In this document: one piece after another, positions 1,690-23,297 of the stretch
Layout: each line of letters starts with the position of its first letter
How positions within the stretch are numbered: position 1 is the first letter of the stretch
Assembly: GCF_010093595.1 (NCBI RefSeq)
Contig: NW_022985463.1
Coordinates: 5,323-69,322, forward strand
Length of the DNA stretch: 64,000 nt
Origin: Mytilinidion resinicola
Lineage: Eukaryota > Ascomycota > Dothideomycetes > Mytilinidiales > Mytilinidiaceae
Direction: 5' to 3'
Translations under genes and position numbers: made by a program
The notes under the pieces: generated by a model
What the model was told of the DNA's origin: nothing
What the model saw: only the letters and a program-made list of their open reading frames with translations
Database searches by the model: none

Positions 1690-3714
1690 TCACGTTCTCT
1701 GCCGTACTGCCATATTGGTGGTTCCGAAATCCATGACCTTGGACGAATTTCCTGGATCAGACTTGTGGCGAGAACGGCCTCGTCTCTGCCTCTTACGTCC
1801 GTCTGGAGCAGGTGGAATGGGGGCTGGCCTGGCAGGTAGTACCGCAGGCGGCAGCTGTTCGACTGAGTCTTCTTCTATTGAATCCGGACCATATCTGACG
1901 TTGGCGAGATCTTTCGTGGCTAGATCGGTTCTCCACACATCAAGCGCCATATGCGCCCAATCCGGGATACGCTCTCCTTGTGATGCTTCACCAACACTCC
2001 GCTCCAGCTCATACATCTCCCATGGGGAGATTCTGAGCTTATGGAGAATCCACATGTTGATACGTTCACGTGTGCTTTTGAAATCACGTAGATAATCGCT
2101 AAGGGTAGACTGGCTACTTGGACCCTCGTCCAGGAGGAGCAAGTCTCGTCCGTCTCCCCAGAAATTGTCATCTTCCTCGAAAGCTGGCTCTCCTTCAGGG
2201 ATAGTCACCAGGTCTCCAATACCTCGCAGATTGTCGGGCTGCGCCATTCGCCAGATATCTGGCGTTTGTAGATCAGGAGCCGTAAGTTCTAGAGGAATGC
2301 GATCTTCCCCGGCCATGCCTTTCGGCACGTCTTCCGCCGTAAGAACAGTACTACGGCGCTCAGTACTTCGACGCGGGATGTTGTGTAATCCTAACGACTC
2401 TTGTTTGCTGTGGGACAGCGAACTCTCATATTCGGGTTCTTGGGGCATTGCCTTGAACAAAGGCATCTGGCCGACTTTGACGCTATCGCCAAGATAGGCT
2501 CCGTTGAGCATGGCGGCGTTCCTTGGTTCGCCCTCTACCTCGCTCTTATGCGAACCTGTTTCGAAGGAAATGTCGGACATGTGTGTTGCTACCGTCGTAG
2601 TACCAGTTTGCAACTTGAAGAAGTGGTTGAATTTGCGTTGCAACTCTTCGTACTGCTCCTTCAAGGCAAACTCAGCGGCACCCAATCTACCCTCAATCTC
2701 CTCGTAGTCGTCTTCAGCCGGACCAACCAGGTCTCGGGATGATTGGGCTTTCTGGAAAAAGTGTTCCAATTTAGTGTCTGTGGAGGTAGTCCCACTGATC
2801 CATGATACACGTAGAGCATCCATAAAGATTCGGTCATTGTCAGAAACATTCTGCCGATGTATTCGCAATGCGGTTCTTTTCTCCTGAACTTGGACCCGAA
2901 GCCTGGTTATATCCTCCTGCATTTGCACAAATTTCGACAGATCCTCCATGAACCGATCATAAATTCTTTGGGCCCCAGGGTTCACTCGCGGCAATTCGGC
3001 ATTATCACTGGAGATGATCATATTGTAGGTTATATCTAGAGGTTGGGGTGGACCCGGCGGGGGCGGTGGAGGAGGTGGAGCTTCGGTCATATTGACAGAT
3101 TTGACAGATCCTTCGGTCTTGGTTGGTGTGGTTGGCGGTAGAAAGTCTGCTGGAGGCGGAGGCGGATGTGGAGGTGGAGGTGGATGTAAAGGTACGAGCT
3201 GTTCCTGGGAGGTCTCCATGTCTGTATCAATCGTTGGAAGGTCGTCGCCGATCAGCGGCTGTTCGTGCGCGTCATTCTGAAAACCTTCAGGGGCATGTGG
3301 CGGCAGGACCGTCGGTGGAGGAGGGATGGGATGGACGACGGAAGGGGGAGGAGGCGGGAATATGAGCGGTGGTAACGCGTCATGAGGAGGAGACGGTAAT
3401 GCCGGGTCTTCCTTCACTGGTGGTTGTTTAGGCGTGGTGGGACGTGATTCTTCGCTGAAATATGGTTCAGCGAAATGAACCTTGGCCCGTGCTGGCTTTG
3501 GCTTTGGCCCCGTCGCGAAATCACGACCCCGCGGTATAGTGTCGTCGTCCCCAATCGTGTTCGAGTCTGAGCAGACATCTGACAGTGGAAGAGACGCTTG
3601 GAGAGACGCTTCAGGAAGGCTCTCCAGGAGTCGGTCCTCGGAAGACGGCGGGGCAGACGACTTGACGTCTTCGAGGGCGGACAATTCGAACGACACGGGA
3701 CGGTCGGCCTCCAT
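1690..3714 (-). CDS. Proline-rich coiled-coil protein (paralog 1 of 3)
   Basis: I recognise no named family; the product has 674 residues from the ATG at 3714. Residues about 94-226 are dominated by polyproline runs (PPPPP, PPPPPPPP). Residues about 250-372 form a charged coiled coil containing an EDDYEE segment. A short motif STRERINMWIL lies near 546-556, and a basic Ser-rich tail (GRSRHKSDPG) sits near the C-terminus. The coiled coil, the R-x-R-x-x-W motif and the basic tail recur in the genes at 10396 and 14407, so these are paralogs. The ATG directly follows a splice acceptor (TTTTTAG); a GTAAGC donor at 3766 would define a 52-nt intron that joins in frame to a short upstream exon encoding MDSQMSTSAASLKA, so the N-terminus may be longer. 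It is divergent from the DUF6590 gene at 4359. Function unknown. Confidence 0.8.
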   Translation of the reverse strand: MEADRPVSFELSALEDVKSSAPPSSEDRLLESLPEASLQASLPLSDVCSDSNTIGDDDTIPRGRDFATGPKPKPARAKVHFAEPYFSEESRPTTPKQPPVKEDPALPSPPHDALPPLIFPPPPPSVVHPIPPPPTVLPPHAPEGFQNDAHEQPLIGDDLPTIDTDMETSQEQLVPLHPPPPPHPPPPPADFLPPTTPTKTEGSVKSVNMTEAPPPPPPPPGPPQPLDITYNMIISSDNAELPRVNPGAQRIYDRFMEDLSKFVQMQEDITRLRVQVQEKRTALRIHRQNVSDNDRIFMDALRVSWISGTTSTDTKLEHFFQKAQSSRDLVGPAEDDYEEIEGRLGAAEFALKEQYEELQRKFNHFFKLQTGTTTVATHMSDISFETGSHKSEVEGEPRNAAMLNGAYLGDSVKVGQMPLFKAMPQEPEYESSLSHSKQESLGLHNIPRRSTERRSTVLTAEDVPKGMAGEDRIPLELTAPDLQTPDIWRMAQPDNLRGIGDLVTIPEGEPAFEEDDNFWGDGRDLLLLDEGPSSQSTLSDYLRDFKSTRERINMWILHKLRISPWEMYELERSVGEASQGERIPDWAHMALDVWRTDLATKDLANVRYGPDSIEEDSVEQLPPAVLPARPAPIPPAPDGRKRQRRGRSRHKSDPGNSSKVMDFGTTNMAVRQRT

Positions 3715-4358
3715 CTAAAAAGCACGGGAATCAGGAGAGGCAAAACAACTATTGGCGATTGCTTACGGCTTTCAAAGACGCGGCGGACGTTGACATCTGA
3801 GAGTCCATCCACATCCCATATTCGAGCTGCACAGCCGGACGTGGAGCAAACGCAACGGCCGCAGGAAAACGGGGAAGAGGCCAGCGAATCGGCCAGCAAG
3901 AGCACGGAATGAAGAGCAAACGGCGAGAGAGAGAAAGCGACACGTTGCGGGCAGAGCGCAACGGCGGACGGCGAGCCTCACATCGTGGTGGTGAGCGGCA
4001 CACTGCCTCATATTCCAGGGCTGACGCGCCAGGGAGCTTTCGCGCGGTATGCGGGATAGCGGCGGGAGCTTGATACGACGGATTGGGGCCGGAACAGGGG
4101 CCAATATCGCGGGCTCGGCTACGGCGACAAATGGCCAAGCGTCGATAGCTGTAACGAAACCACATGCACGCTGTGCTGTCAGGCCGCTTACCCTACTTAT
4201 TACCGTGAGTGCCCCTCACTCTGCCTAGATGCTATGCGGCTCTTTGGGCGCCCGCTGTATTTGACTGCCTTCGTTCCGGCCCAAAGGTCGCTGGCTGCCC
4301 CCAGGACATCCCCGCTGCTGGATGATCCGCCCCTCGTTTGGCCAACCATCATGTAAAT
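3715..4358. promoter_or_regulatory. Shared divergent promoter region, module 1
   Basis: This gap separates a minus-strand coiled-coil gene from a plus-strand DUF6590 gene, so it must hold both promoters. It probably also holds a 5' intron (3715-3766) of the left gene. No TATA box or paired motif was identified with confidence. Confidence 0.5.
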
Positions 4359-5982
4359 ATGTCTTCGGGCGCCTACTCCGCGTGGGTCTGGTCTCCAGAG
4401 CACCAGCGTCACTACTGTTACCGCTATGTGAACAACCAGATCGAGTACCAGTGGTCAGGCCTCCCAGCTGCCCAAGCAGCACAAGCGCAAGCAGCCGCGA
4501 CAACATCGTTACCGCAGACAGCGCATGCAACGAGGTCAGTGACAGTTTCTGTAATAGCCACTATGTTTCCAAAGGGAGCCTTGTTATGGATTGGAGTACT
4601 AGCTCTGGCAGTTACTTTGTTTATGTAGGCCGTCGGAAGGGCTCGTTGCTTTGGTCTCTTTAGTAGCCTCGCCGTCTTAGCAATGAAACTGCTCAACGTT
4701 CAAACCTACCTCCTTCCACTCGCAAGTTCTTGCACTGACTTCAATTATACAGTGCTACACCTCGCTCAGTGCCGCCAATAGACTCAGCAGCTGCATCCTC
4801 AAGAGTAGCCACAGCCTCGAGAACAATTACATCCTCAAGAACAAATCAACAACCAAAGAAAGAGGCGCCTGTAGTGGAAGAGGAGGAAGACGACGGCGAA
4901 GATGAAGACGATGATGCCGATGACGCCGATGACGCCGAGGGTAGTGGAGATGATGAAGAGGAAAAGCCCAAGCCTCAAGCGTCACCGCCGACGTACAGGC
5001 CCGCCGCAACCACAACAACGCAGCCAGGTCGGTCTCAAAGCTACCAGTATGGGACCGGGCAGTCTCATAGCTATCCATACGGAGGTGCCCAGTCCACCGC
5101 TGCTACTTATGCGTCCTCTGTAAATACCTACGTCGCGCCCGCTTCGGCTCCCACTTCGCCCCAGTACACTACCAAACGCCCTTACACAAGTGTTTCTCAG
5201 TCGAGTGTAACACAACAGCCGCAGAATCCTTCTACTGGAGATCCAGCCCGTCGGCACATCAAGACAAGCTTCGCGCAGAACGTCGAGTCCAAGGAAGACA
5301 GCCTTGATCCTCGTATGTGGTTTCCGTACTCATTACTTGCCGTGACTGACCGTATCAGGCTACAGAAGAGTTTCCGCTCGGCATATACCACAGTTTTTCT
5401 GCAGAGGAAGGGTCTTCAAAATGCTTTGGACTGAGCCCGCTGGCGTCACTCCAGGGAAAACTCGCGGTTCTACTCATTTCAGTCTGATTAGGTTCAATGA
5501 AACAGCATACTCCGAAATTCGTCGGTTCATTGTTATAAGTAACAAGGGACAGTACAGTCAGTGCATGTAAGTTTGGGAATAGGCTCCTGGCCCGTCGTTA
5601 TAATCATGTCAAAGATTAGCTTGCTGCCACTTCATCCATCCAACGCAGATCAGAGTTTGGGGCTAACCGTCCTAGACCTATCCAGACATACCGTGGGCAA
5701 GGTACTCGTAAGCATGGTATCGTTGTCGAGGATCACTCGTTGATCTATACTGGCGACGAGGATGACGAACCGCCCGAACTCCTTCCAGGCGAACGGATCA
5801 CAAAACAACCGCTACGGGTAGAGCCAACGGGCTCGGAAACTCTCGAGTCTGCCTCTCGAGTGAACTTTGGTAAGGTGTACACTGTGGAACACAACGTCAA
5901 AGTGTTGGACATTGGCGTTGTTTGTCCACAGCACATATACCTCTTGGTGAACTACTTCACCGACGCTTTGACCTCAGTGTAG
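4359..5982 (+). CDS. DUF6590 protein with N-terminal aromatic (WW-like) motif
   Basis: Model join(4359..4534, 4753..5312, 5359..5566, 5676..5982), 416 residues. Residues 1-30 hold a W-x-W-S...YxYRY...YxW motif also seen in its paralogs. A low-complexity middle follows: an acidic run near residues 90-120, then Ser/Tyr/Gln-rich sequence. From residue about 246 comes the DUF6590 domain, with FFCRGRVFKMLW, RRFIVI, an intron just before PIQTYRGQG, DHSLIYTG, LLPGERITKQPLRV and NFGKVYTVEHNVKV. Unlike its paralogs it lacks the intron after G-R in the first domain motif. The family has no known biochemical role. Its head-to-head partner starts at 3714. If the first intron were retained, translation would stop at 4628 after a hydrophobic stretch. 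Confidence 0.88.
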
Positions 5983-7760
5983 AGGACGCGATTGGGGAAG
6001 CCGGGGAGCGGTCGACTTTGAGATGCTTGACGCGCCACACACTAAGCAACATACGCTTAGTCGGTTTGTCTCGCAGGACCCGTTTACACACTCCGATGTG
6101 TGCCATCATATACGGGCGTCACCTGCTTCGTGTTACTCGCGATAGTGGGTGGCGTTGCCATGTCTTTTCTGCTTCGCATTTTTTATCCCTATGACGAATT
6201 TCTCTTTATACGGCCATATCCTTCATTTGCTCCAACTTTCTCCTTTAGCTTGCCCTAATTCTAGTCCCATGATATGTCTGAGTAATGCTCTTGGCGACGA
6301 ATTTATTCTCGACATGTCGACGGCGTTAGATAGCTCTTCAAGCGTAATCCAATCAGACTCTTGATGCTTCTTATCTTTCGGAAAGAAACGGCGGCCCCAG
6401 CTGCACTATGACACCGGAGCCATGATACGGATTATGGGTTTAGTGTGGTTCTGGGTGTCTGGGTCCCGAGTTGACGGCCCGAGGCACGTGCCGCTACCCC
6501 ACTACGGCCCGCTAGATCGAGACTAGTCGATCGCACCCACGTTTTAACCGGCGTAACGGCGCACCTCAAATTTGACTTTCCGCCCAACGCAACTCATCAG
6601 GAGTTCATCACGTCTTCCATCCCACGTTCATCACTCTTGTCCTTGAATATAAAGAATCTTGCTACCTGCTCTCACGCATGTTCTTTTTGCCCTTCTTCCT
6701 CAGCCTAATTGAACGCGGCTTGACCGGTACTGCTGTGTTTAGTCCACGAAGAGATGAGGTGCGTATCTCCATACAAGCCGGGCAACATGCAACATCGATG
6801 GTCGCAAGCCCTACCCGACCCAACGGAATCCCCTGCCACTAGCGTTGCATAAACTTGTTGCTGTTTTAACAGCTTGCCTTACTAAGGAAAATAAGGCGAC
6901 GAACGAGGCTGAGGCTGATAGTAAGAAGGCATAGGTTCGGGGATCCGAACGGCCGAAGGAACAGATGCAGTATCCGGCGTGAGCTTTCTCATACTCTTGC
7001 GGTCAGAGAATACGGCTAGGCTGTCGCGTTGTTTCGGATACCGGCTGTTCGACTCCGCTGATAGTATGAAGATGATAGTGGTGAATGGTGCTATTGCTTA
7101 GCAGGCATCGATACTCGGGGCCCTTGGTCGGTAATGTTACTGCTGATGGATTCGCGGAGGCGGTAACGGGCTGTCATTTGGTATGTCTGCTTATCTTAGG
7201 AAAGAGGTCATCGCTGAATAGAAATCGTTCACCGATGAGACGCAAGTCCGAAAGCTTCCTTCGCCAAGGCTCCGTACATGAACCCTCGTGAGAGAACCAC
7301 GTGACTAAAGAGACTAAAGAAATACCCCCACGAAGGAATCCTTCCAAGAATTCACTTATCGAAAGGCCACACTAGAAGATGATCCCATTAAAAGTGCCAG
7401 GAATTCCTTTGATTCATCTAGTATCATATCAAGCAAAAGAAAACGTGGACTAAACGACCGTAGACCAACCCAAACCAGCTCGAGAAATCTCAAATTACAT
7501 AAATCGTAATCGCGTACAGCAGTAGAAAACAAATACCTCAAACACTACTCGATAAAAGGATAGTAGGCGCATCGTATTGATAGTCATGCGTTTAGGACAT
7601 AGAGGAGACTCGACGAAAGAAAATCATTACCAGACATTTGGATTCCATCAAAGGACGTTTGGGCGTTTCACGAGTATGTTTCGCGAGCTGGGCCAAACGA
7701 CCTGCGGAAAACAGCGTATCATCTGAGCTACATGTCGCTCATGAAACCCATCATCCGGTC
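5983..7760. other. Intergenic, convergent side
   Basis: This stretch lies between the 3' ends of two DUF6590 genes. It contains only short open frames without motifs, and I see no gene or repeat. Confidence 0.5.
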
Positions 7761-10008
7761 CTACTTTTTACTCCCTCCCCAGATACTGTGCCTTCTTGCT
7801 TGCTTCGGTTTCGCATTTGAGCTAGATGGTCTTCTCTCTCTTCCTTGTACCGTCCTGCCGACTTCGGCGACTCTTGTTCCGCTTGTCGGATATGTTGGAA
7901 GCTGAGCTTGTCTGCTGGCTGGCTTTTCGGTATCATTGCCTGAATCATCTTCTTGTCTTTGGTCATACTCGAAATCTTGGACTTGGTCGATTTGTGGAGC
8001 TACTTGAACATTTAGCTCGGTGTTTGCTAAAGACAACGTGTTCTCGTAGACCATGGACTCATCCGTATGGCTAGATGTGTCGATAGGAGAGCATCTATCG
8101 GAAGAAGACTCCGCGGGCCATGCCTGATGGGTTCGGTCAGCCTCGCCCATCCCGAATTGGCTACGCATCGACCCTTGCGGTGGTGCGTTGGGAGAGCGTA
8201 GACTCTGAAGGTGGTCTACGCGTGATTGCGCGTATGGTGAGGGCGTTGTCGAACCACCATATTGGTTTACGGCTTGCTGCTGAAGCGCTGGGGCACGCTG
8301 GTCCTGATATGCTAACGGGGATTTATATCCTGGATGGTCCGCACCACCAATCGTTTGGAATCTGGGCGCCGAACTCGGCGGCGTCTCGGCGATTCCCCAG
8401 GCCTCTTTATACTGGTGTACCAACTTCACCATCGACTCTTTGGCAACTTTACCGAAATCGTAGACTTTTACGTTATGCTCCACGGTATAGATCTTCTGGA
8501 AGTTGACTCGCGAAAGTGGATCCAGTTTTTCCCATGGGTTGGTGGCAACTACACGAATTGAGTCACCCATTGGAAGCTCCGAGGGGCTTTGAGGTAATTC
8601 TTCTGGCTTGGGAGCTGGTGGTCCATGGTCACCCGTATAGATGATAGCGTGGTGGCTCTTCTTCTTTACAGCCGACACGCCTCTTCTAGAGTACGTCTGT
8701 ATCGGCCTTGAAAGGATTTCAGCATTCCCCATTATAAAATCAAAGGCACCGAGGTTACTCACAAACAATGACAGCAATTATGGCCTAGTCTAACGACAAC
8801 GAACCAACGGATTTTCACATAAATCTCCTGATTGAATCTAGGATCTCGGGCAAGCTGCTGAACAGATATCGTCGGGGGAGCGGTTCCTTCTCCCACCATC
8901 TCTGGCCAAAGAACCTTGAAGACCTTTCAAAATGTTAACGAAAGTCTTTCTTCGAATATCCAGTGCAGTTATTCGACTTACTCGACCAATCTCAAAGAAC
9001 GGAGCTGCGGGACGCCGTACCATAAAACCTGAAGTCGTTGAGTCACAATTTAGAAGCATGGATTCGGGCCATATCTTACTTGGATCTAGTTTTTCTCGAT
9101 TGCCTTGTGTCCCTTTGATCCTCTTAAGTGGACGTACTTGCGGCTCCAGCCCATCTTGCTCTTGAAGGTTGTATCCCAAGTTCATCTCCGTGGTCGTCTT
9201 AGATACCTCAGACGTGAAACAAGGGTCAGCTCCTCTAAGGATAGAAGGTGAATATGTTGGGTAATTATACTGAGGAACAGATATAGAGTGGCCTGCGGTG
9301 GAGCTTGAACGTTGGTACATGTTGGATGTGACTGACTGAGAAAAATGCCCAGGTGCGTCGGCAGTAGCGGATTGCGGTATACTTATTGAAAAGGAGTGAG
9401 GCGCATTTTGATGAGAGACCAACACACTCGAATGTCCTCCAGATGTTAGTCTGTTGGTTTGTGAGAGGGGCGTGAGATATCCCTGGCCGCGTTGAAGTGG
9501 AGGAGCTTGATTGGACATAGAACTCTGTGCGTGTAACCTATGATTTTCATTTCTATCGCCGTGCGCTGGCACACCATTCTCGACTCTGGTATGTGGAAAG
9601 TTATACCCGCTGCTTTGTCCTTGGACATTTAGCATGTTCATGGCTTGATTCAATCCACTGGAGGCATTCTCGGAAATGGAGTCAGGCACTTGACCAGGCG
9701 AGAGCGGATGGTTATGCGATATGCGTCCCACACCGTGTGAGATTTGTTCTGGACTGTTTTTGCAGTTTTGTATCAGCCTAAGACACAAGAGCTGGGAATG
9801 AAATAACCTCGGGGAGAGCCACTTACAGATTTGCGTTGAAGCTTGTATTAGCTCTAGCTAGAGTCCTAGCTTGATTCGGTGGAAGACTGACGATGCGTCC
9901 AGATGCAAACACCCAGGAATTTCTCACCGAATCGTATCTGTAATACTCTCCGCAGGTTTGGTCGTACCCATCCCACAGCGCGTGTTGTCGCCCGGGAGGT
10001 TCTGCCAT
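7761..10008 (-). CDS. Large DUF6590 protein
   Basis: Minus-strand model 10008..9827, 9777..9080, 9028..8982, 8923..8763, 8706..7761, giving 677 residues. The N-terminus has a divergent aromatic motif (LWDGYD...GEYYRYD...SWVFASG). A long Ser/Gln/Asn-rich linker (about 60-290) precedes the DUF6590 domain: FFEIGR, VFKVLWPE, WFVVV, HCLPIQTYSRRG, HAIIYTGDH, SRVNFQKIYTVEHNVKV. A disordered tail of about 240 residues ends in an ARRHS-type basic site. Exon 3 is only 47 nt, the same size and domain position as in the genes at 17371 and 19728. The start was chosen because ATG 10008 opens the aromatic motif. It is divergent from the coiled-coil gene at 10396, 387 bp away. Confidence 0.88.
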
Positions 10009-10395
10009 CCCCAGCACCTACATAGCATTCGGAGTATCGCACGGACTCCAAGGCGAACGAGCCCTTTTAGTGGCAGTTGAGTGAGGCTCAGCGTATTTTA
10101 CTCGTTCTAATGGGCATTTCAATTGCGTTGCACTAGTTGTTTTTATGACAGCTCGCCATTCTGCCGGGTCTGCACGAAAGCATGTTTTCAGCCTGCTGCC
10201 GCGGTTCGTGCATATCAAACTAGCGAAATAAGCCCCGTGCATAGCGGGCGTGTCATCTAACAAGGATTGTATCGGAAGGCAAATGCATGAAAATGGCAGG
10301 GCTGGCGGGATCACTCAAAGCTGTCCTTCACCCCAAGGTTCCTCGTATGCCTTTCCCGACTAGATTGCCGCCTACTACCCGCTCTTAGGACTCTT
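10009..10395. promoter_or_regulatory. Shared divergent promoter region, module 2
   Basis: This 387-bp gap between two divergently transcribed start codons is the tightest of the three paired intergenic regions. No specific binding site was recognised. Confidence 0.55.
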
Positions 10396-12050
10396 ATGGA
10401 CCTGAAGGGAAAGCAGCCGACCGGTAATGAAACAACCCCGGCCGGTATTGATGCCGTTGCATTTCAGCGCCCGTAAGTTCAGAGTCGTTTTCAAAGCCAA
10501 AGATACACACTTCTCAATCAGTTCACAGGACCTCGTCAGGCGACGACATACCTCCTCCTTATGTCGAGACGCCCAGCACTCCAGCTTATCAGCATGATAT
10601 TGCTTCGCCCTCCAGCCTTGAAACTAGGGGGCGTACGCCACCATTGGAGAGATTGGCCGATGATACCCCAAGAGTATTCAATCAGGCCTCAGCCTCGTTC
10701 CAAGAAGTTTCGGCCCCCCCTCGCCAGCCGTTATACCAACAATTCTCAAATGGTGATAAGCTTCAAGGACGCTCCCCTAGACCGGCGGAGAATCAAATTA
10801 TCCCCCAGGAGGCGAGGATATCGGGGCAGACCATGCCCTACAACATCTTAACGAGTAAGAGATGGATTGCATCGCAGCGACGCGTAGCCCGATCAAGGGA
10901 CAAGGTGCTCACAACACGTGTCCGCGTGAGAAAGCAAAGGAATAGATATGTGCAGCATATGCAACATTCTCAACTTCTTGGGCGGAAGCTGGCGGCGAGT
11001 TTCAGTGCAGCGTTGGATGGCTTTCGGACACGACAGGACCAACACACACTCGAACAAATTGTGTCTGGACTCGAAAGCGGATGCCAGGAGTTCAACGGGT
11101 CTATGGGGGAATCGGAAGTGCAGAGAGAAGAAACATACGCTATCGAAGATCAGCTTTCAATCTTGGAATATCGATACGGCAAGAAAGAGGACAGCTTATC
11201 TCATCAGGTCGAGAGTGCATTGGCGGGCGAAGACACGGGATATGAGACCACAGACACATCTTCGGAAGGCCTTTCCATAATCTCAAGCCATGACTCTGCT
11301 CCAGTGGACTTCCCGCCGCGGCTCAAGGAATACTATTCTAGGATAGGAGATCGTAAGATCCAAGAGGACCGCTTGAACAATTTCAAGATCGAACTCCAAC
11401 AGGAACTCGACATGCGCGAAACCCTTCGTGGAGAAGGCAAAGACGTCAACACTGATGAGGAGTTCTTCAGCGAAAGACTACTAGAACAGATCCAGATTGA
11501 AACTGAGCTTGCTGAGGCACGTTCAGATGTCCGACGTCTCCGGCAACTATGCCTAGAGGAAGGCATATATATCGAAAACGTGTTCGACATTGACGACGAC
11601 GACGAAGCACTTTCCGACGCTCAATCCGAGGCCTTCTCCACGCCGATGGAAATGGAGCAATCTACCAATGAACTCTATCCTCCAGCACTATCTCGATCGT
11701 ATGGAAGCGTCTCTCCAGGTGGAAGTCTTATTTCTGGCTTTCTAAATACTCGCGACCGCGTCAGAAAGTGGCTGATTGACGATGCCGTGAACGAGAAATT
11801 CCTTAGTGCACCGACAAGCGACATACTATCCAGAGATCACAAATGGGTCAAATTGGTACCGGCATCTTGCTCCCCGATTGAGCCGCCACAAGGCTTCGAG
11901 CACACGTTCCAACCACCCGATCCTATCCGCAACGCGCAGACGCAACTTTCTCACTCAGCTCCGCACATAAGAGCCTCATCCAGCGAAACCACCGGCCGCT
12001 CTCCACGAAGACGTGCATACAGTGCTGCAGGAGCGTTGCAGCATCAATGA
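10396..12050 (+). CDS. Coiled-coil protein (paralog 2 of 3)
   Basis: Model join(10396..10472, 10529..12050), 532 residues. The first exon begins at ATG 10396 (MDLKGKQP) and splices in frame through a GTAAGT donor and a TTCACAG acceptor. I recognise no named domain. Residues about 120-330 are helical and charged with two coiled-coil stretches (RVRVRKQRNRYVQHMQ; EDRLNNFKIELQQEL). A motif NTRDRVRKWLI lies near residues 432-442 and a basic site SPRRRAYS near the C-terminus. These correspond to features of the proteins at 1690-3714 and 14407-16545. It is divergent from a DUF6590 gene. Function unknown; a scaffold or partner of the DUF6590 protein is an inference from position only. Confidence 0.82.
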
Positions 12051-14406
12051 TGCCACCAGCATGCTCCGTCACTACAATGCCCTTCTTTCAGCTAGGCGCC
12101 TCGATCTTCCCGTCTCCTGTTCTATCCAATGACGTTCCTATGTTCATTCCGGGGTTGTTGGTGTGGCGCATCTTGCATTTCAGCTCTCAGAGATAAGGCA
12201 ACATGTTGATAGATATGGGTTTCTCGTTTGTAAGATTTAGATGACCCGGTTACGAAGTCGCTTCTGCCTTTCTTTTCCTGCTTCTATGTCGTTAACTGAA
12301 GCATGATACCCCCCTTTTCTGAAACCTGTTCGGTCTTTTTCGTATACTCTTCGCGAACTGCCTCTTCCGTAGTCTAACTTCCGCTGGCGCTGATCTCCTC
12401 AAGATCCCACTTTTGCACAGTGCTCGTGGCTTAGAATTCGATATCAGTGATATTAAGCCGGCCATATCTTGGATATTAGTGGGTGAGCATGCCTCTAACT
12501 TTGTTGGTCGCCGGTGAGAGCTGTCCAATGAACACCAAGCGTTCCCGATCCGTGGATCCTGATCCTTGCCCTATCCGTATGTCCGTGTCCGTGCGGGGGG
12601 TGTGCATCCTCTTGAGAATCAATCCTCACCCTATGGAATAGTGAGGCTGCAGAGGCAGATGATTATACAGCTTGCACAGCCCGCCTGAGGATCGAGGCAG
12701 GGAATACCAAGTTTCGTCCCACACCTTTTCGGCCAGTGATCAAGTGTTCGCTCTCAGTTTCATTTTGATGTCGCTCCATTTCACTCTTTCGGTCCAGTCC
12801 CTACTCGCTAGGTAGCAGATGGTAGACCGTGGACCCCACGGCGGAACAAGCAAAATGTCTCGATTATGGTGGTAGGTGGCACGACTCATTTGACACTGCT
12901 TCTAAGCCACCTCGCTCGACCCCGCAGCCCTGTGGGGGTGATTGACTAATACCCAGCTGTATCTAACACGACTATTTTGGCTAGTTTCCTCACAAGCATA
13001 ACCCAGCAAGCGCAGCGGCGTGGCGCCATGGGCCAGCCCGGCGGCGCGGGACGAATCGTGGGCAGAGTGGGTCTCTCCCGAGCATAAAAACGCACGGACT
13101 GGGCTGTGAATGTGAAAGTCTTCCGATTTTAGAGTGGCATGTCAACAGGAAGGCAACCAACGTCGTGTTGTCGATTTCGGTTGACGTGACATTTGTACGC
13201 TGTGAAGCGTCGGACTTGGAGAACACACCCGCAAGGCGGCAGAGCACACGGCGTAGCAAACGAGCTCAGCTTGCCCCTATGCAGCTTCCCGAGTCCTTCA
13301 CTGTGCTCACCCCCATGATTCGTGCGAAATAGCCCACGTGGGAGGCCTAATCCCACTTCTCCTTCAAACGTGCACTGCCCGCGGGCCTGACTTTGAGATG
13401 TGGAAATCATGGGTTGGTGCTCCGTAAGATCCTGGATGACTCCTAGACGGCATCTCCGTTGTGATGTTTGCCTAAAGCGGCCCGAGCATGACCGGTTACG
13501 AATGCAGGTGCTGCAGTGCTGATGCACGAGAAGATGCACGGTGGATCAATGCGCAGCTTTCCCCGCGATTTAATGGAGTCACGTCTCCGTGCCGATCAGT
13601 CATGAGCGTGACTGGTCCGTATACGCGCTGCTCTCGAATTTTGGTAAGGCCGAGTGGTATCCAGAGCCTCCAAGACTGATATGCCGAAACTTGAGCTGCT
13701 CTCTGGCTGATTCGAGCGAAGTCGATTGGATGACGAACTTAGTACCTAATAGCTTCAATACCCAATGACCTACAGTCCTCCCACTCTTGAAGCAGCCAAG
13801 CTTTAAGGCAAGCGTTTTCGACAAGCACGCGAGAAAGGCTATCCTCCAATATCGCGTAAGGGGTGGTAAGTTGGACGAGGCCAGAAGCCACCCAATGAAG
13901 TGTATGCGCCCTGCTGCCGCTTTGAAAGATCAAGCTACATGAGCCGAGTTGAGAGAAACCGACTTTGTAATTTACGCGTATGGGAAGCGGTCTAAAGAAG
14001 TCATTACAAAATACAGGTTATGGATGTACGTGTGAATTGAAAAAAACAAAGTAGATCAGATAAACGATCGGGGGTACGGACTAGCAATACCTGAGTGTCG
14101 AACACGAAATCTAAGGGAAGGTCCCTTGGTCCCAAAGTTCTCTTTCATCCTCCAGTACCGGATACCCGAAATCGACGCTCTGCAAATAAATTCTGCCCAA
14201 CTGCTAGTAAGAACGTTTCGAGCTCTGTATCAATGAGACCTCTAAACGCACATGCTTCCATTCAAAGCAAATATGACACAAACATGATAATCGCGCGATA
14301 TAGGATTCAGACTTGCTCGAGCCATGGGAAGATCTCGTTGAAGTTGAAGGAATGACGACCACAAGCCAGGCAACGTAACAACGTCGTATATCGCTCACTT
14401 CTCTCC
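12051..14406. other. Gene-poor spacer within the DUF6590 cluster
   Basis: About 2.4 kb separates module 2 from module 3. It lies downstream of the genes on both sides (convergent 3' ends). I see no family motif in the short open frames and no clear relic of either cluster family. Confidence 0.5.
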
Positions 14407-16545
14407 TCAAGAGCGCGGTGATTTTTTGTTCTTGTGACGATCAGGTCCTCCATCGGGTCCTTCGGGAGGCAATTTCTTGGGAACTGGTAGGCTATTTGAT
14501 TGGGGGTATATGCTCCCAGTGTTGCTTTCGCTACGTGATCTTCGATGTGGTGAAGGCGGCAGCTCTCCTCTAGAGGATCTCCGTACTTCTTGTGACTCGC
14601 CACTTTCGTTCATCGGCGAGGCGGATCTTGACAATTCTAACGTGCGAGAAGAGGTAGAAACTACCGTGAGCGGTGGACTGGGCACTGAGGGTCCATTCAG
14701 TGTATATGTCCACGGCTGGTGGCTGTTTCCGAAAGGCTCAGCGGTCGCTGGTGGAGGGGTTCTCATATATTCTGCTCGTCTGAAAGGGTCACTGAACGGC
14801 AGGTTTAAAGTCGCAAAAGATTTGAACTCATTTACATCAATTTTGATGTCTCCAATATCCCCTGGGTCTGATCGAGGCCGGTCATCGGTTTTTTCAGGCT
14901 GGATACGGAGCTTCTGGGTCTGTTCATTTGGGGGTTCAAGGTAAATCGGGTCAAGATTTAGCGTAGGCTTAGATTTGCCATCTACTTCCTGCGAGTCTAA
15001 GCGCGGAGAAGGAAGAGCTGGTGTGGTATTAGGTTCTTGGTTGACTTGAGACATATCCAGCAGAGTTACCTGCAAGGGATGAGATAAGGACGGAGTCGGA
15101 GTTTCTTCATGTGTCGGAGATGGCACGCATTGATCTTCTCGTGTCAGTGTAGGGGGCTCCGTTTCCTCTTGATTGCTGGGACGAGCATTTCTATAGAGAC
15201 TATCGGTATCGCCGGAGCTTCCCGCGGAATCCGGAAGTGTTTCATTCGACTTTATCTGGGGTGGTGTAGGAGCAAGCTTAACAATGGCAGGCGGCCTCGA
15301 AGTGGCTTCTGTGTGTTTCGAACTCGAAGAAGGGCTCGGCCTTTCTCTGCCTGCGGCTGTAGATCCATTTTCTTCGGCACTCACGTGCGACACCTGACTA
15401 TCTCTTCCACTCCGGGCGACGGAACTGCCAGAGGTTTCATCATTCCAACGCTGAATCATTATCTGCCAAAAGGAGGACTCGTCAAGGTCCTCATTGTATA
15501 AGCCAGAGAGGAAAGCCTTGAAGCGAGCTTTCTCAAGTGAAGATGCGTCCATAGTATCAAGTAGCCACTGACCGACTCTTCTTCTGTTGCTTGGATTTTC
15601 GTCCCCATACATAGCTAGGTTGCTTTCAGTCTTCGCCCGTGATATTGTCTCAATGTTTGCAGTTGGTAAAGGCATCGTAGACGATCCCGAAGGATCCGAG
15701 GCTCGGCGACCAATGATAAGGGAAGGGCGACTGCTACTCAGCAGCTCTTGCTTCAGATTTCTTTCTTTGACATCGACAGCAACGAGCTTCTCGATGACCA
15801 CGCTTGCTTGCCGTTGAATTCCGTCCTTTTCCTTCTCTATTTCCGGGGGTGTCGAAAAGTCGGCGATTATCCGTAGTTTATGGTCATCCATGAGAAACAT
15901 CTCTTGCTCCCGGAGGCCGTTGAACTGATCTTCGAGCTGGCGCTTCTCCATCGCAGTAGTGATAAGGTCGCGGGTAAGTCTCTCTGTGATATCTTCAGCA
16001 GCTGGTTGAGAGATGGCATGTGGCGTAGTAGGCCCGCTGTCCGAGAACTCGCTGTTACCGTTCTCATCGCTATCTTCTGGGAAGGAATCCAGCATGTCAT
16101 ACTGATAAAAGTCGTCTTCCTTTTCGATGAAGCGCCACTCTGAGGCACTGAATACTTTCTGGGCTTCGGAATAGTCGTCTTCAAGTTTTCCAATGATATC
16201 TCGTGCTGCTTGAACCTTCAGGTATTTTTCGTGGAGATCCGGCGGCAGATATATGCCTTGTTGCTCGCAAAATTGCCTGAGGCTAGTCATAAACGAAGCC
16301 TCGTCATTCCCAGCTCTCTCTCGATATAAACGAATGGCCTCCAGTATGCCCCGAAGATCCACTCGCTCGATAACTAACCCTTCCCTTGACTTTGCGAGCT
16401 GTTTGTGTAGGTTTTGGACATTCTCTAAATGTCGGCGGTAATGTCGGCGGGCAGCCTTCGAACGGCGTACTTGACCTCGACGGGAGATGGGAGGGTCATG
16501 CGACTGCCTCGCTGGACCTGCAGTCAAGTCTTGTTCTGTCGACAT
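14407..16545 (-). CDS. Coiled-coil protein (paralog 3 of 3)
   Basis: Single exon of 712 residues from ATG 16545. Residues about 25-165 form an Arg-rich coiled coil with an EDDYSEAQ segment matching the EDDYEE segment of the paralog at 1690-3714. A second helical block spans about 200-290. The motif NRRRVGQWLL lies near residue 320-330. The C-terminal half is Ser/Pro/Thr-rich and disordered, ending with a basic Ser site (SPHRRSRSES). Start choice: ATG 16545 opens directly into the conserved region. It is divergent from the DUF6590 gene at 17371. Function unknown; no enzymatic motif is visible. Confidence 0.82.
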   Translation of the reverse strand: MSTEQDLTAGPARQSHDPPISRRGQVRRSKAARRHYRRHLENVQNLHKQLAKSREGLVIERVDLRGILEAIRLYRERAGNDEASFMTSLRQFCEQQGIYLPPDLHEKYLKVQAARDIIGKLEDDYSEAQKVFSASEWRFIEKEDDFYQYDMLDSFPEDSDENGNSEFSDSGPTTPHAISQPAAEDITERLTRDLITTAMEKRQLEDQFNGLREQEMFLMDDHKLRIIADFSTPPEIEKEKDGIQRQASVVIEKLVAVDVKERNLKQELLSSSRPSLIIGRRASDPSGSSTMPLPTANIETISRAKTESNLAMYGDENPSNRRRVGQWLLDTMDASSLEKARFKAFLSGLYNEDLDESSFWQIMIQRWNDETSGSSVARSGRDSQVSHVSAEENGSTAAGRERPSPSSSSKHTEATSRPPAIVKLAPTPPQIKSNETLPDSAGSSGDTDSLYRNARPSNQEETEPPTLTREDQCVPSPTHEETPTPSLSHPLQVTLLDMSQVNQEPNTTPALPSPRLDSQEVDGKSKPTLNLDPIYLEPPNEQTQKLRIQPEKTDDRPRSDPGDIGDIKIDVNEFKSFATLNLPFSDPFRRAEYMRTPPPATAEPFGNSHQPWTYTLNGPSVPSPPLTVVSTSSRTLELSRSASPMNESGESQEVRRSSRGELPPSPHRRSRSESNTGSIYPQSNSLPVPKKLPPEGPDGGPDRHKNKKSPRS

Positions 16546-17370
16546 CGTAGGTCCAAGGCTGGTAAATTGATAGCCGGTGATTCTTTGAGATTAGTTTGTT
16601 GCCATCTTGCTCAAAGGATTTCGGATACGCTGGGACGAATGATCAGGAACGGTGGCCGATTGCGTTTGAAAAGTAAAACAGTAGTTGTTCGACGCGTGCC
16701 TCCCTTCATAGCATTCTAGCAACACTCATCAGCCACAAAGAGAGGAATACGTGGATATATGTGACAGGTTGCGGCGTACGGCATGATAGTGTCCAACGTC
16801 GGCTGAATGCAGCTTCAAGCATCAAACGGTGGTGGTCCTAGGACCTTTGAAACTGGCACATCCGGGACTCTAATCCAGGAGGCGCGTATGGCATTCTCGT
16901 CCTCACATACCTAGCCTCTAGCGCCGGGGCTGCGGCTCAATAATAATACGATATATTGTAAAAAGGCAATTACAAGGGATTAGACTTGCGGCAAGGGCGA
17001 AACGGAGGGGGCACGCCACGCAGCGCACACCCAGCGCCCCGGAGCAGTGCACCCACCGTGATTCATGGATCGTGATCGGTGAGAAGACAACCGGCCCCAT
17101 TTGCTGCGCTAAAAGCGGCGAGAAGGCGCCGGCCCGTGTGGACCCATCCCTGTCGACGCAGGTAGCTCCCTTGCAAACCACCGACATCCCCCCGGACCTC
17201 AGCATGTGCTCGATGTGCGAAATGGCGGGGAAGCCGTGTCCACAGTGCACCGCTGGCAAAAATGACGCTTGATCAAATGCAGGTGCAGAGCCTCAATCGT
17301 AGTGAAGGGGCGTATATATAGGTCTTGCGTTCGCCGTCAAATGATGGGATGAAGCAGCAATCCGGTAGTC
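16546..17370. promoter_or_regulatory. Shared divergent promoter region, module 3
   Basis: An 825-bp gap between the divergent coiled-coil and DUF6590 genes. Short open frames occur on both strands, but none has motifs. Confidence 0.5.
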
Positions 17371-18833
17371 ATGGCTGACCCGAATCAGTGGAACTGGAGC
17401 CCCCAGTACCAAAAGTATTACCGCGTTACATTCGACTCAGATGGTAGGACTGACTGTCCGATTGAGTCTGACCAGAGCAGGCAAACACGCTGACCTTTTT
17501 TACAGGCCAGCCAGTGTACCATTGGTCGACAGCTACACCTCAGCGAACGCCAAAGTAAGTGTTCTCGGAAGCCTCATAGAGGCTGGGGTAAGTAAGCTGG
17601 AATGGGCTGACGTGTAGTAGTAGACGTAACACAGGCGATTCTTGGAATGACTCTGCATTGGGTGGCAGCCCCCCATCAGCATCGCAGGACTCTCCGACGT
17701 CGACCTATCCCTCATACCCACAATATGGGCAGCAATCTTTGGATCCCAGCTCTGCTCACGCATACCCGCAAGACCTTGAGAATCAGACGTCGAAAAATGA
17801 TACTACCTCCAACCCAGGATTAGGACGCAACCCAGCGTATCTGACATCGACTTCTGCTTATTCGACGGCTACCCCTGCATACTCACAGACCGCTGGGTAT
17901 CCCGCATCGACTAGCAATGCTTCATCAAACCTTCCTGGGCAGGCACCAAGACCTGATGTCTCAGTCCCGGCACCATTGCCTACTCCTGGTGAGCCAAGTC
18001 TTCGTTGGTATCTGGTCTAAGAAGCAAACGAGCTCAGGGACTGACTAATTATTTTAGATGAAGGCAAATTGCACATCCGAGGGAATCTTTCTCTTGGTAC
18101 AGCGGAACCGCTTGACCCAAGTATGTTTGGTTCTATCAAATCCGCACTTTTGCTGACTCTTACTAGGCTACCGTTTGAGAACCAATGCCGGCCAGTTCTT
18201 CAGGAAAGGGAGGGTAATTGCTATTTCAATGATTACTTGACGCCGCTTATAATTTCTTTAGATGTTTTCGGTACTGTTTACCGAAAGTTACGGCGAAACC
18301 CCTCCTAGACCAGACAATGAAAACGCCAGCGTGGTAGGAAATCGCGCAGTTCGAAAAGATCCGAACATCAGCGTTGTGAAGCACAACGAGTTAGTGTACT
18401 CGCAGATTCGCCGCTTTATATCTGTTGATAACAAACACGGGTTTTGCTACGCCTGGTGAGTGTCGGAATTCCAAAAGAAACTCTGCATACAAAGGTAGGA
18501 TGATGAGACTGACCTGATAGCCCAATATTCACGTACGGAGGGCAAGGCACGCTAAAGAGGGGCTGTAGACCCGAAGACCACTCCATCGTCTACTATGCTG
18601 GACTTCAGATGCCCACGCCCCTTCCAGGAGAAATCAGAATCACGAAGCCTCCTATTGGGGTTATACCCACAGCGAACGATACTTCACTCACACAAATGGA
18701 CGTTGCTTCGCGCCTCAACTTCGGAAAGGCTTACTTGATAGAATACAACGTGAAGGTGAAGGATCACGGGAAAGTCCGCGCCGAAGACATGGACACTCTG
18801 ATCTATCACTATAAGAAGGAGCTGAACGGGTAG
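17371..18833 (+). CDS. DUF6590 protein
   Basis: Seven-exon model join(17371..17443, 17506..17554, 17621..17988, 18058..18120, 18167..18213, 18262..18455, 18521..18833), 368 residues. The N-terminal aromatic motif reads WNWSPQYQKYYR...GQPVYHW. A Ser/Tyr/Pro-rich linker follows. The DUF6590 domain (about 185-366) shows FFRKGR, MFSVLFTE, QIRRFI, PIFTYGGQG, HSIVYYAG, LPGEIRITKPPIGV and NFGKAYLIEYNVKV. Exon 5 is 47 nt. The third exon acceptor is a repeated TAG (17617/17620), so one residue is ambiguous. It is the closest relative of the gene at 19728, which follows on the same strand: a tandem duplication. Confidence 0.88.
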
Positions 18834-19727
18834 TGATGAATCGTACTAGGAGTCTGAGTCAAGAACTCGGAGATCGAACAATACGTTGAACCTCGACATG
18901 GTTCTCAATTCCTTAGCGTTACGAACCTGTTACGAAACCCATTACGTCTGCCTTTGTGGCTATACTCTAGCCACGAAGCTTGTCCTTTTGCCCCTCGGCC
19001 TCTCCTTACTTGGAATTTGGACGGTTTTCATTCTTGCGGCGTATCACATCCACGGTATCTTACCAAACGCGACGTATGATTATGATCATAGTCATGGTCA
19101 TGAAGATTCCGGTCTACTTCAGGATTATGGAAGGCGATTCTCAACAATCGCTGGCAGCTCATCTTTAGTTCTTCTGTCGGTCGTATTTAGCAAATCCTCT
19201 GATTACTTCCTCGGCGGACTTCGTTGCCGGCTCTGACTTCCATGATGAATAACCTGAAATCATGATTGGTAGCAACTAGTGCCCGCGCAGTTGGATCCCC
19301 GATACTCATTCGGTACCGCCACGCATTTGCCAAGCTTGATCGATCAGCACCATGCCAACGTCCTAGAGAGTTTTCGACAAGCTGAAGCCCAATATTCGCT
19401 CCTCATAAGCAATTTGCAAATCATAGTCGATGGCGTCAATGCCTGCTGGCTTGAGCTAACCGCCTCGGATCGGTGCAAGCCGGGGCCTAGGGTGATATGC
19501 AGCACCACCCCTCACATGCAGCACACGTATCGAAAGTGGGGGAGATTAGCCAATTCTTCCTGCAATGCAGGCTTCTGGTGCTCGTGATCCTTTTAGACAG
19601 CTTCCAGCTGAGCATACGCAGAGCCGCATGGAGTCAAGGGGTGCGGCCAGCGTATAAACCATTCGGCGTCCGAACCTGTGCAGCATGAAGATCGTAACAA
19701 GCTACTCATTTCGACTCGTACGGAACC
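18834..19727. other. Spacer between tandem DUF6590 genes
   Basis: This holds the 3' untranslated region of the upstream gene and the promoter of the downstream one. A hydrophobic open frame from ATG 18898 to 19236 begins 65 nt after the preceding stop. It has no recognisable family and is not called as a gene. Confidence 0.45.
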
Positions 19728-20763
19728 ATGGCATCCGGAAATATCGTGTGGACCTGGAGCGAATCATACAAGAACCACTTTTACATCACCTACGATTCCC
19801 AAGGTATTGCGACAAGCTCTTACATCACCGCGATATCCACTGACACGACCAAGGGAATCCTTCGTATGTCTGGGCCACCACTGATCAGAGACGCGACTCA
19901 GGCCGTAAGTTAGGTCATTTTGCCCAATTGAACACTACCTGCATCCATTCAGTAGCTCCTTATACGTAGTAAGCTAACGCATGATTGGTGGATGCAGAGT
20001 TTGAGACAGGAAACCACATCCATGGGACGGACGGCGAATATGAGCAATTGGATCCGAGTAAAGCCGATGACTGACAGATGGAAGCCGAACGTTGCTAACG
20101 TTTCCAGGCTACACGGTCAGACAGGATGCCCGGACATTTTTCCGCAGGGGAAGGGTAGGTCTTTTGCTGAAGTGAGATGAGTCCCTACTGATTACCGCGC
20201 ACAGTTGTTCTCCGTTCTTTTCAGTGAAGGCATGGGAGAAACCGCGAGGATGCAGGACAGGGACTGTGTCACCGTGGTGAAATATGGCGGCAAGGTGTTT
20301 ACTCAGATACGACGATTTGGTAAGAAAAGCAAGCTTTTCCACCAATGCTCTCAACTAAGCCGAGTGTTAGTCGTCGTGGGTGAGAAGAAAGGTTTTTCCT
20401 ATGGCTGGTAAGCTAGTATCCTCGCTTTCGCATCTATCTGCTTCTGATCGATTCAGCCCCATATATACATATAAGGATCGCGCGACTACCAAACCTGGAT
20501 GTCGACCTTCTGAGCATGCGGTTGTCTACTATAGCACGCTGCAATCACCCACACTTCTCCCAGGTGAGACAGATTTGGTCAAAAAGCCTATCGGCGTCAA
20601 GCCGTCGGATCCGAACCAACAGCCCATGAATACCGCATCCCGTATACGGTTCGGCAAAGTCTACCCCATAGACTGGAACGTCAAAGTCAAAGATCTTGGG
20701 AAAGTGATTGATGAAGATATGGAGCGGCTGCTCGCCTACTACACCAAGGAACTCACTGGGTAA
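19728..20763 (+). CDS. Compact DUF6590 protein
   Basis: Seven-exon model join(19728..19803, 19854..19904, 19998..20057, 20108..20154, 20205..20319, 20371..20407, 20457..20763), 230 residues. It has the aromatic N-terminal motif (VWTWSESYKNHFYITYDS, then NPSYVW) and almost no linker before the DUF6590 domain (about 63-229): FFRRGR, LFSVLFSE, QIRRF, PIYTYKD, HAVVYYSTL, LPGETDLVKKPIGV, RFGKVYPIDWNVKV. Exon positions match its neighbour at 17371, including the 47-nt exon, with one extra intron splitting the RRF/VVVGEKKG segment. This is the minimal form of the family in the window. It lacks a paired coiled-coil gene of its own; the next gene is the unrelated helicase. Confidence 0.87.
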
Positions 20764-21352: not shown

Positions 21353-23297
21353 ATGAAACGAAAACTCAACGAAGAGGGCGTCCCGGAAGAGGTGCGCTCT
21401 GCGCCGTCTATGAAATCAGGTTCGAAATTCGAAACGCTGCAGCTTGATCCTCGTCTCATGCGTGGGATTCAAGCGCAGTCGTGGGCAGAGCCGACGAAAG
21501 TGCAATTGGAGGCCATCCCCCTAGCTATGTATGCCGTCTTCCATAGAACTGATTACACTCAAGCTGACAGTATCTAGGGAAGGCAAAGATATCCTCGCCC
21601 GATCCTCCACCGGCACTGGAAAAACCGCCGCCTACCTTTTACCTGTACTCGAGAAGATCCTCCGCAGCAAAACAACGTCAAGCCAGAGACAGACCACAGC
21701 ACTCATACTGCTCCCGACCCGGGAGCTGGCAGGACAGGTCGCAAAGGTCGCGGAGTCGCTTGTGGCGTTCTGCGGACAAGACATACGCGTGGAGAATCTC
21801 GCACGTACAGAGGATGGTCTCGTTCAACGCGCTCGCCTTGCAGACTTCCCGGATATCGTTGTGTCTACTCCGGGTGCAATATCGACCAACTTGAACAACG
21901 GCGCGCTGTCTCCCGATCACCTGGCACACCTCGTAATCGACGAGGCGGACTTAGTTATGAGCTATGAATACGAGAACGATCTCGAAAACATCTCCAAGTC
22001 TTCCCCAAAGGGCGTTCAGTGCTTCCTCATGAGTGCTACTCTATCTTCCGATCTAGACTTTCTGAAAGGCCTTTTCTGTCGAAATCCGGTCATTCTAGAG
22101 CTGGACGATGACGAGAAAGATACAGGCGGTGTCACTCAGTATGTTGTGCGATGCAAGGAGGATGAAAAGTTCTTGTTGGTCTATACTTATTTCATGTTGA
22201 AGACACTTAAGGGGAAGGGTATCATCTTTGTGGGCGATATCGACCGATCATATCGACTGAAATTATTCCTGGAACAGTTCGGTATCAAGAGCGCGGTTCT
22301 AAATTCCGAACTACCAGTCGCCTCCCGCCTACACATTGTGGAACAGTTCAACAAGAATCTTTATGAGATTCTCATTGCCAGTGATGAGAATGAAGTTCTC
22401 GGCAATGAAGGACGAAAGAAGAAGAGTCACAAGGAAAATGAGCAAGAGGAGGGGGTGGATGAAGATGCCGAAAAGAGCAAGACCTCCGATCCGGCAGATG
22501 CCCCGGTGGATGACGATCAGGATGGAGAAAAAGTCACTACAAATGGCAAGGTAACTGAAAAGTCTGGGCCACCAAAGAAAAAGAGGAAAGGACCGAAACT
22601 AGACAAAGACGCCGGCGTTAGCAGAGGCCTCGACTTCCGAAACATCGCCTATGTCCTCAATTTCGACCTTCCTACGAGCTCCAAATCTTACACTCACCGA
22701 ATCGGACGAACAGCACGTGCGGGGCAAACTGGAACGGCCATCTCATTCGTCGTTCCAAAGGAGCATTACCGGAAACACCGTCCGACTACTTTCCCGTCCA
22801 CTGAACACGATGAGGAGGTCATGGCAAAGATTATCGCATCTCAAGAAAAGAAGGGGAAGTCTATTCAGCCCTTAAAAATTGACGATAAACGTCTAGAGCC
22901 CTTCCGGTACAGACTAGCGGACGCTCTGAGAGCCGTGACTCGGATAGCTGTGAGAGAAGCAAGGGTGCGGGAATTGAGGATTGAGCTCTTGACCAGCGAC
23001 AAGCTCAAGCGACATTTCGAAGAGAACCCTGAGTTGAAGCAACAATTGCGCCACGACGGCGAGCTCAGAGCTGTGAGATCGCAACCACACTTAAAGCATG
23101 TTCCTGATTATCTTCTTCCTGGAGGCAAGCAGGCCGCTCAAGATAACGTTGGGTTCATTGGGATGGGCAAGTCAAACGAGAATCGGATTCGGAAGGCAAG
23201 AATGCAAAACAAAGCTCGTGGTAAAGGGAAGAGGCCCGGAGGAAAGAATGCGGACCCACTCAAGACATTCAACGCAAAGGGGCGTGGAAAGAAGTGA
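21353..23297 (+). CDS. DBP9: ATP-dependent RNA helicase, Dbp9/DDX56 type
   Basis: Model join(21353..21528, 21578..23297), 631 residues; the 49-nt intron restores AIPLAMEGKD across the junction. Visible DEAD-box motifs in order: Q-motif region (PTKVQLEAIPLA), Walker A (STGTGKT, near 69-75), PTREL, TPG, DEAD (about 180-183), SAT, RGLDF and HRIGRTARAGQ. An acidic/Lys-rich insertion of about 85 residues splits the second RecA domain before RGLDF, as in the Dbp9 family. The C-terminal tail is Lys/Arg-rich (GKGKRPGGKN). Dbp9 acts in the nucleolus in early 60S ribosomal subunit assembly. The gene is essential housekeeping and unrelated to the cluster on its left. Confidence 0.93.

Follow-up and report, generated by a model that had tools for sequence, protein, structure and literature searches.

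In a 64,000-nucleotide stretch of the genome of Mytilinidion resinicola (bases 5323-69322 of contig C27, in an assembly of 47.1 Mb and 44 contigs; hereafter the window), we find three divergent gene pairs, each of which sets a gene of the DUF6590 family (PF20233) head-to-head with a gene for a coiled-coil protein. Every frame is open, and the same genome shows the pairing again at three other places. Our tentative best explanation is that each pair forms a two-gene effector/regulator unit whose DUF6590 member carries a domain with the fold of the MazF toxins; the fold is predicted for a homolog, and from the pairs we infer an interaction of the two proteins, RNA cleavage, toxicity and an immune role.

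The original prediction for this DNA had proposed three divergent pairs, with the strand assignment reversed in pair 2 and a fourth DUF6590 gene extending the array, and the gene models agree with it on each of these points. The introns of these models are 46-218 base pairs (bp) long with GT-AG ends; their borders were set by eye, in the DUF6590 genes from the GT-AG rule and the family alignment, with no transcript support. The array is laid out as follows (window coordinates).

1690-3714 (-): CC1, coiled-coil partner of pair 1; single exon, one frame of 674 residues; family match at residues 257-362 and 534-604
3715-4358: spacer between the divergent starts of pair 1; 644 bp
4359-5982 (+): DUF_A, DUF6590 gene of pair 1; four exons (4359-4534, 4753-5312, 5359-5566, 5649-5982); 425 residues
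7761-10008 (-): DUF_B, DUF6590 gene of pair 2; five exons (9827-10008, 9080-9777, 8982-9028, 8763-8923, 7761-8706); 677 residues
10009-10395: spacer between the divergent starts of pair 2; 387 bp
10396-12050 (+): CC2, coiled-coil partner of pair 2; two exons, intron 10473-10528; 532 residues
14407-16545 (-): CC3, coiled-coil partner of pair 3; single exon, one frame of 712 residues
16546-17370: spacer between the divergent starts of pair 3; 825 bp
17371-18833 (+): DUF_C, DUF6590 gene of pair 3; seven exons, 369 residues
19728-20763 (+): DUF_D, fourth DUF6590 gene; seven exons, 230 residues; in tandem behind DUF_C, with no coiled-coil partner of its own

The two gene families and the recurrence of their pairing

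The four spliced DUF6590 models of the window score 147-157 bits over nearly the whole Pfam profile, for which the curated cut-off is 27 bits (DUF_B was scored without its last 207 residues). The DUF6590 domains of the three pairs are 37-48% identical, and DUF_C is closer to DUF_D and to a copy on contig C3 than to DUF_A or DUF_B. A Pfam search of the genome places DUF6590 at nine genes: the four on C27, one on C32 that has two domains, one each on C3 and C7, and two on C10. The C32, C3 and C7 genes and one C10 copy lie above the cut-off, and the other C10 copy falls just under it at 26.1 bits. The two C10 copies belong to a divergent type, and four further DUF6590-like genes, one of them with a stop, are found on C32. 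Compared by hhalign, the divergent type (C10/C32) matches DUF6590 with a probability of 88.7% and an expectation value (E) of 2.6e-6 over 138 columns, or 62.5% and 7.3e-5 with a trimmed alignment. In leave-one-out profiles five divergent-type genes score 38-137 bits, and their shuffled sequences (500 each) reach at most 6.5; the sixth member, interrupted by a stop, lies outside this test and was seen only by genome sequence searches. The gene near 440 kb on C32 was first spotted by eye beside its coiled-coil gene, and scores 38.1 bits with a profile built without it (shuffles 5.2).

The two-domain gene on C32 (L015:4446-6662(+)) has, between its DUF6590 domains, a stretch that resembles a retropepsin-type protease by eye, for which Pfam reported no protease at E 1. 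Five pairs of DUF6590 homologs (P0015/P0021, P0018/P0034, P0032/P0065, P0067/P0076 and P0050/P0066) seemingly share a contig each, which suggests that DUF6590 genes of other fungi are also co-located and perhaps clustered. No DUF6590 was found in prokaryote or viral contigs, each searched with a single pattern.

For the coiled-coil proteins, a profile was built from nine homologs (those with a named source come from Acarospora and Pleopsidium), with no window protein included. It scores CC1 at 92.1, CC3 at 81.2 and CC2 at 63.0 bits, against maxima of 6.6, 9.9 and 18.7 bits, respectively, in 2000 local shuffles of each, and it also finds a protein on contig C2 at 44.1 bits (shuffles 5.8). Because a profile made without them scores all of these far above shuffles, CC1, CC2 and CC3 are, judged by their sequences, one family with a fourth member on C2; the single paralogous family of the original prediction is thus borne out by profile search. 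Its members have diverged widely, with pairwise identities of 21-26% within CC1-CC3 (26% over 115 residues for CC1 and CC3), and CC2 was not found by CC1 or CC3 in single-sequence searches of the genome. CC3 is 48% identical to a protein of Lophium mytilinum, a species that is among the closest named relatives of both CC3 and one DUF6590 copy. A (R/K)SD(P/L)G motif near the C-terminus, which might be a docking site, is present in CC1, CC3 and the C2 protein and is absent from CC2. No Pfam family above cut-off was found in CC1, CC3 or the main exon of CC2. An Acarospora homolog is modelled as a pair of antiparallel helical hairpins together with a small C-terminal part, also helical, and tails of low confidence (mean predicted local distance difference test, pLDDT, 59; predicted template modelling score, pTM, 0.30); the PDB matches listed for it were general coiled coils and other long helices, none of them at E 0.001.

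Outside the window, the pairing was noticed at the DUF6590 genes of C10, and genome searches with the C10 coiled-coil protein and a relative, and with DUF6590-like proteins, brought up further copies, among them pairs at two places on C32. Gap lengths are counted between the open DUF6590-like frame and the first probable ATG, with approximate starts.

C10, near 1457 kb: DUF6590 gene L020 3595-4563(-), coiled-coil gene 4990-6138(+); head-to-head, gap 426 bp
C10, near 1469 kb: head-to-head, with overlap between the 5' end of the DUF6590-like frame and its coiled-coil partner, a truncated remnant
C32, near 62 kb: head-to-head, gap 869 bp
C32, near 440 kb: head-to-head, gap 1267 bp

The coiled-coil partners at these places belong to a second family with six members, three on C10, two on C32 and one on C30; of the C10 members, one is the truncated remnant with stops (L021) and another has a stop between its pieces. 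Leave-one-out profiles score five members at 128-216 bits (shuffles at most 14.0). Kinship of this family to CC1-CC3 could not be demonstrated: hhalign gave E values of 0.1 and 0.015, and 0.15 against the CC3 group, and the nine-homolog profile that detects CC1-CC3 does not detect the second family. One alignment brings the second hairpin and an R-I-x-x-W motif into register, which we regard as a hint only. Two histories would fit: one old unit that has since diverged past recognition by sequence, or two separate gains of a head-to-head coiled-coil partner by DUF6590 genes. We dropped a 0.08 match of the second family (C32, near 96 kb) and also weak matches on C12, C1 and C3.

Altogether, a partner stands opposite 7 of the 10 coiled-coil genes and 7 of the 13 DUF6590-family genes. 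With 13 such genes in 47.1 Mb, the chance that one lies head-to-head within 1.3 kb of a given gene is about 1.8e-4. The window pairs were the given finding and the two C10 pairs had been noticed by eye beside DUF6590 genes, so both are outside the test of recurrence; the other four members of the second family were found by sequence, and two of them, both on C32, are paired. The probability of at least two of four being paired by chance is about 1.9e-7 if places are random, and block duplication would leave fewer independent events. The proposal of a bidirectional unit whose two families stay together gains from the head-to-head layout at three further places, and is qualified by the undemonstrated kinship of the two coiled-coil families. 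That they were amplified together holds only in part: the partnerless DUF6590-family genes, DUF_D included, and the affinity of DUF_C to DUF_D and the C3 copy do not fit a joint amplification.

Fusions and genomic neighbours

Fusions to a protein kinase domain occur both in DUF6590 and in the first coiled-coil family. In the coiled-coil family the fusion is the C2 member (L018:4776-6875(-)), a frame of 700 residues in which a Pkinase domain (residues 31-301, 1.8e-33) is followed by coiled-coil-family sequence; no DUF6590 match was found within 9.9 kb around it. The C7 copy of DUF6590 (L017:4388-6563(+)) shares a single open frame with a Pkinase domain (5.7e-32) that follows it, and may be decayed, because its upstream part has in-frame stops. 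The two kinase parts are 36% identical and are not each other's closest relatives, in a kinase family that is large (66 genome matches to the C2 protein, including itself and two CC3 stretches). Among 67 DUF6590 homologs, the domain occurs with SH3 in two and with C2H2 in one.

The C3 copy of DUF6590 faces a DUF7580 gene (L016:7121-8851(+), 7.1e-15) as its divergent neighbour. Beside the first C10 pair lies a HET gene (L020:3-3029(+), 9e-23 by Pfam), and a second HET-type gene flanking the C10 group (L057:5216-6983(-)) was recognised by eye only. We considered the HET neighbours as strong evidence and rejected them as such, because HET matches are very common in this genome (at least 151, from 364 first-look candidates of which 150 were scored). 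With HET and kinase numbers of this order, the self-recognition repertoire of the fungus is rich.

The remaining genes noted beside the array in the window are ordinary: a DEAD-box helicase at 21531-23297(+), a catalase at 28389-30026(+), a Y-family DNA polymerase with a UBZ finger at 41275-43443(+) and an FAD-dependent oxidoreductase at 58804-60057(+).

Predicted fold and conserved residues of DUF6590

The predicted model of the DUF6590 homolog P0023 has a MazF/PemK/CcdB fold, with a barrel or sheet and a C-terminal helix. This gave the word 'toxin-like' in the original prediction an unexpected support, at the level of a predicted fold and with no activity demonstrated. Two positions stand out in the family (P0023 numbering): Arg77 is kept in 53 of the 54 DUF6590 rows that have a letter there, the sole exception being the C3 copy of this genome, and Thr97 is kept in 56 of 56. 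These counts come from a 56-row alignment, from which four of the 53 A4 rows, with fewer than 110 residues in the domain, were left out. The divergent type has Arg in 5 of 5 and Ser or Thr in 5 of 5 at the aligned columns. In the P0023 model, Arg77 lies inside the strand of residues 71-84, and Thr97 directly follows the strand of residues 89-96.

In SaMazF the essential catalytic residues are Arg24 and Thr47, as stated in an excerpt of PMC4041440, and Arg77 and Thr97 come in the same order. We hypothesize that the two pairs of residues correspond, going by order alone because the profile alignment pairs neither residue with its MazF counterpart.

Competing explanations and known two-gene systems

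In the explanation that we tentatively favour, each pair would be a unit expressed from one short spacer. The DUF6590 protein would consist of an N-terminal Trp/Tyr-rich motif, a polar-rich linker and a barrel domain of the MazF/PemK/CcdB toxin fold, which may serve as an effector that acts on RNA, or that binds nucleic acid or protein; its partner, a long helical protein with two antiparallel hairpins if it resembles the modelled homolog, may hold the neighbouring effector, sense for it or release it. The pair would thus work like an effector and regulator, or a toxin and antitoxin, within the fungal repertoire of self/non-self recognition and regulated cell death; as both families have kinase fusions, similar signalling may feed into both. 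A predicted MazF-fold domain opposite a partner of an unrelated family, in a repeated and fast-diverging arrangement, fits an effector that is restrained or triggered by its neighbour, a design known from toxin-antitoxin modules, fungal gasdermin/protease clusters and the het-B pair. A stronger version, which we consider rather unlikely, makes DUF6590 a branch of the MazF/CcdB toxins in eukaryotes, with the coiled-coil proteins as its cognate controllers; filamentous fungi would then have, on their chromosomes, a toxin-antitoxin-like system that has multiplied and diversified within the immune and self-recognition repertoire.

A number of observations weigh against the effector/regulator explanation. 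The fold was predicted for P0023 and not for the window's own spliced proteins. The DUF6590 profile found no MazF among its five matches to PDB sequences at E 10, which were of low complexity, and no MazF or toxin family was present among the 25 of 49 Pfam families listed for DUF6590. Profile-profile comparison of DUF6590 with MazF is weak (hhalign 22.5%, E 9.3e-4, 47 columns, against 0.1% for reversed profiles), as is that of the divergent type (2.3% against 0.2%). In the hhalign alignment Arg77 does not face the MazF Arg, and the MazF Thr falls on the residue that precedes Thr97; Arg77 also lies within a strand of the model, whereas an excerpt of PMC7180214 places the active-site residues of MazF on the loops between strands 1-2 and 3-4. 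No antitoxin-type DNA-binding domain was found by Pfam in CC1, CC3 or the main exon of CC2. A comparison of the three spacers found no conserved sequence common to them; a shared promoter was set aside as a candidate, six shared 8-mers (mean 0.38, maximum 4 in 50 simple shuffles) being too little to build on. Three of the ten coiled-coil genes have no DUF6590 partner (the C2 kinase fusion, one on C10 near 1475 kb and the one on C30), and six of the 13 DUF6590-family genes are unpaired (DUF_D, the double-domain gene on C32, the C3 and C7 copies and a further two on C32 at about 65-66 kb). The single DUF6590 protein found in Lophium lies on a different contig from the CC3 homolog, so that these two are not neighbours, and a non-exhaustive search found no DUF6590 protein in Macroventuria, Acarospora or Pleopsidium, the remaining named species with coiled-coil homologs.

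The chief rival, which we hold to be possible and somewhat doubtful, makes DUF6590 a MazF-fold module that binds RNA or protein and does not cleave, and that forms with the coiled-coil protein a scaffold in kinase signalling, the genes being linked for co-expression. The fusions of DUF6590 to SH3, C2H2 or kinase domains would fit such a binding module too, as would the long helical hairpins of the modelled partner homolog, the MazF catalytic Arg and Thr that the alignment leaves unmatched, and the example of CcdB, which in an excerpt of PMC7180214 shows the fold able to serve protein binding. Conservation of the Arg and of Thr or Ser even in the divergent type suggests something beyond a general scaffold, yet a binding site could equally explain it. 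Because the alignment leaves Arg77 unpaired with the MazF Arg, we lowered our estimates for the effector/regulator explanation and for its toxin-antitoxin-like version slightly, and raised that for the binding module to a similar extent. We judge it quite improbable that the pairs are two-gene allorecognition loci like het-B of Podospora, in which the coiled-coil protein of one strain would react with the DUF6590 protein of another and bring about cell death. The partners diverge fast (21-26% identity in the coiled-coil proteins versus 37-48% in the three DUF6590 domains), and the HET genes by the C10 pair, one by Pfam and one by eye, and the DUF7580 gene opposite the C3 copy would agree with this; set against it are the frequency of HET matches, the lack of any HET, NACHT, gasdermin, NLR, HeLo or other known cell-death domain in the window pairs (by Pfam), and the use of a single genome, in which polymorphism between strains is not visible. 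The self/non-self role named in the original prediction accordingly keeps circumstantial evidence only, namely these neighbours and the kinase fusions, and is weakened by how common HET genes are. About as improbable, in our estimate, is duplication and linkage alone, by which an ancestral pair of neighbours was copied as a block and its adjacency has no functional meaning. The clustering of pairs on C27 and C10, the truncated remnant and the lone tandem copy DUF_D speak for it; the copies are old or fast-changing, as the coiled-coil identities show, yet seven pairs stay head-to-head, and the layout returns at unlinked places on C10 and C32, where the coiled-coil partners come from a family that does not align with the first.

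By arrangement and partner domains, the pairs are not a type II toxin-antitoxin module. The bacterial MazEF/PemIK and CcdAB genes form operons, whereas the fungal genes diverge from starts 387-825 bp apart and encode eukaryotic, spliced and longer proteins; the fungal partner is a long coiled coil with no Pfam domain above cut-off, there is no sequence match at the level of HMMER, and the Arg and Thr are unpaired in the profile alignment. Fungal gasdermin/protease clusters of the HET-Q1/HET-Q2 type are likewise two-gene units, about 80% of gasdermin genes adjoining their protease gene (PMC10197012, in excerpt), but neither domain was found by Pfam in the window pairs. The het-B locus (Bh/Bp) of Podospora anserina also joins adjacent genes of different families, one of them bacterial-type (PII-like), with 89 PII/HET neighbour cases in Pezizomycotina (PMC10890737, in excerpt); its domains differ from those described here, and its incompatibility was tested genetically, whereas our pairs are known from genes alone. 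Plant head-to-head sensor/helper NLR pairs provide another divergent pair that acts as a functional unit, and in Sordariales the head-to-head layout is seen in 13 of 225 two-NLR clusters (both from an excerpt of PMC12258605), but neither gene of the window pairs is an NLR by Pfam. No paper in the literature searched names DUF6590, PF20233 or DUF7580, and no fungal MazF-type protein turned up there, judged mostly from listings; nor did that literature describe the head-to-head DUF6590/coiled-coil unit.

DUF6590 is a Pfam family of unknown function, and the predicted MazF-type fold gives it a first testable function, the cleavage or binding of RNA. If the coiled-coil gene does control its DUF6590 neighbour, the pairs would be a two-gene toxin-antitoxin-like system in fungi, and would join the gasdermin/protease and HET/PII units as bacterial-type defence parts that fungi have retained.

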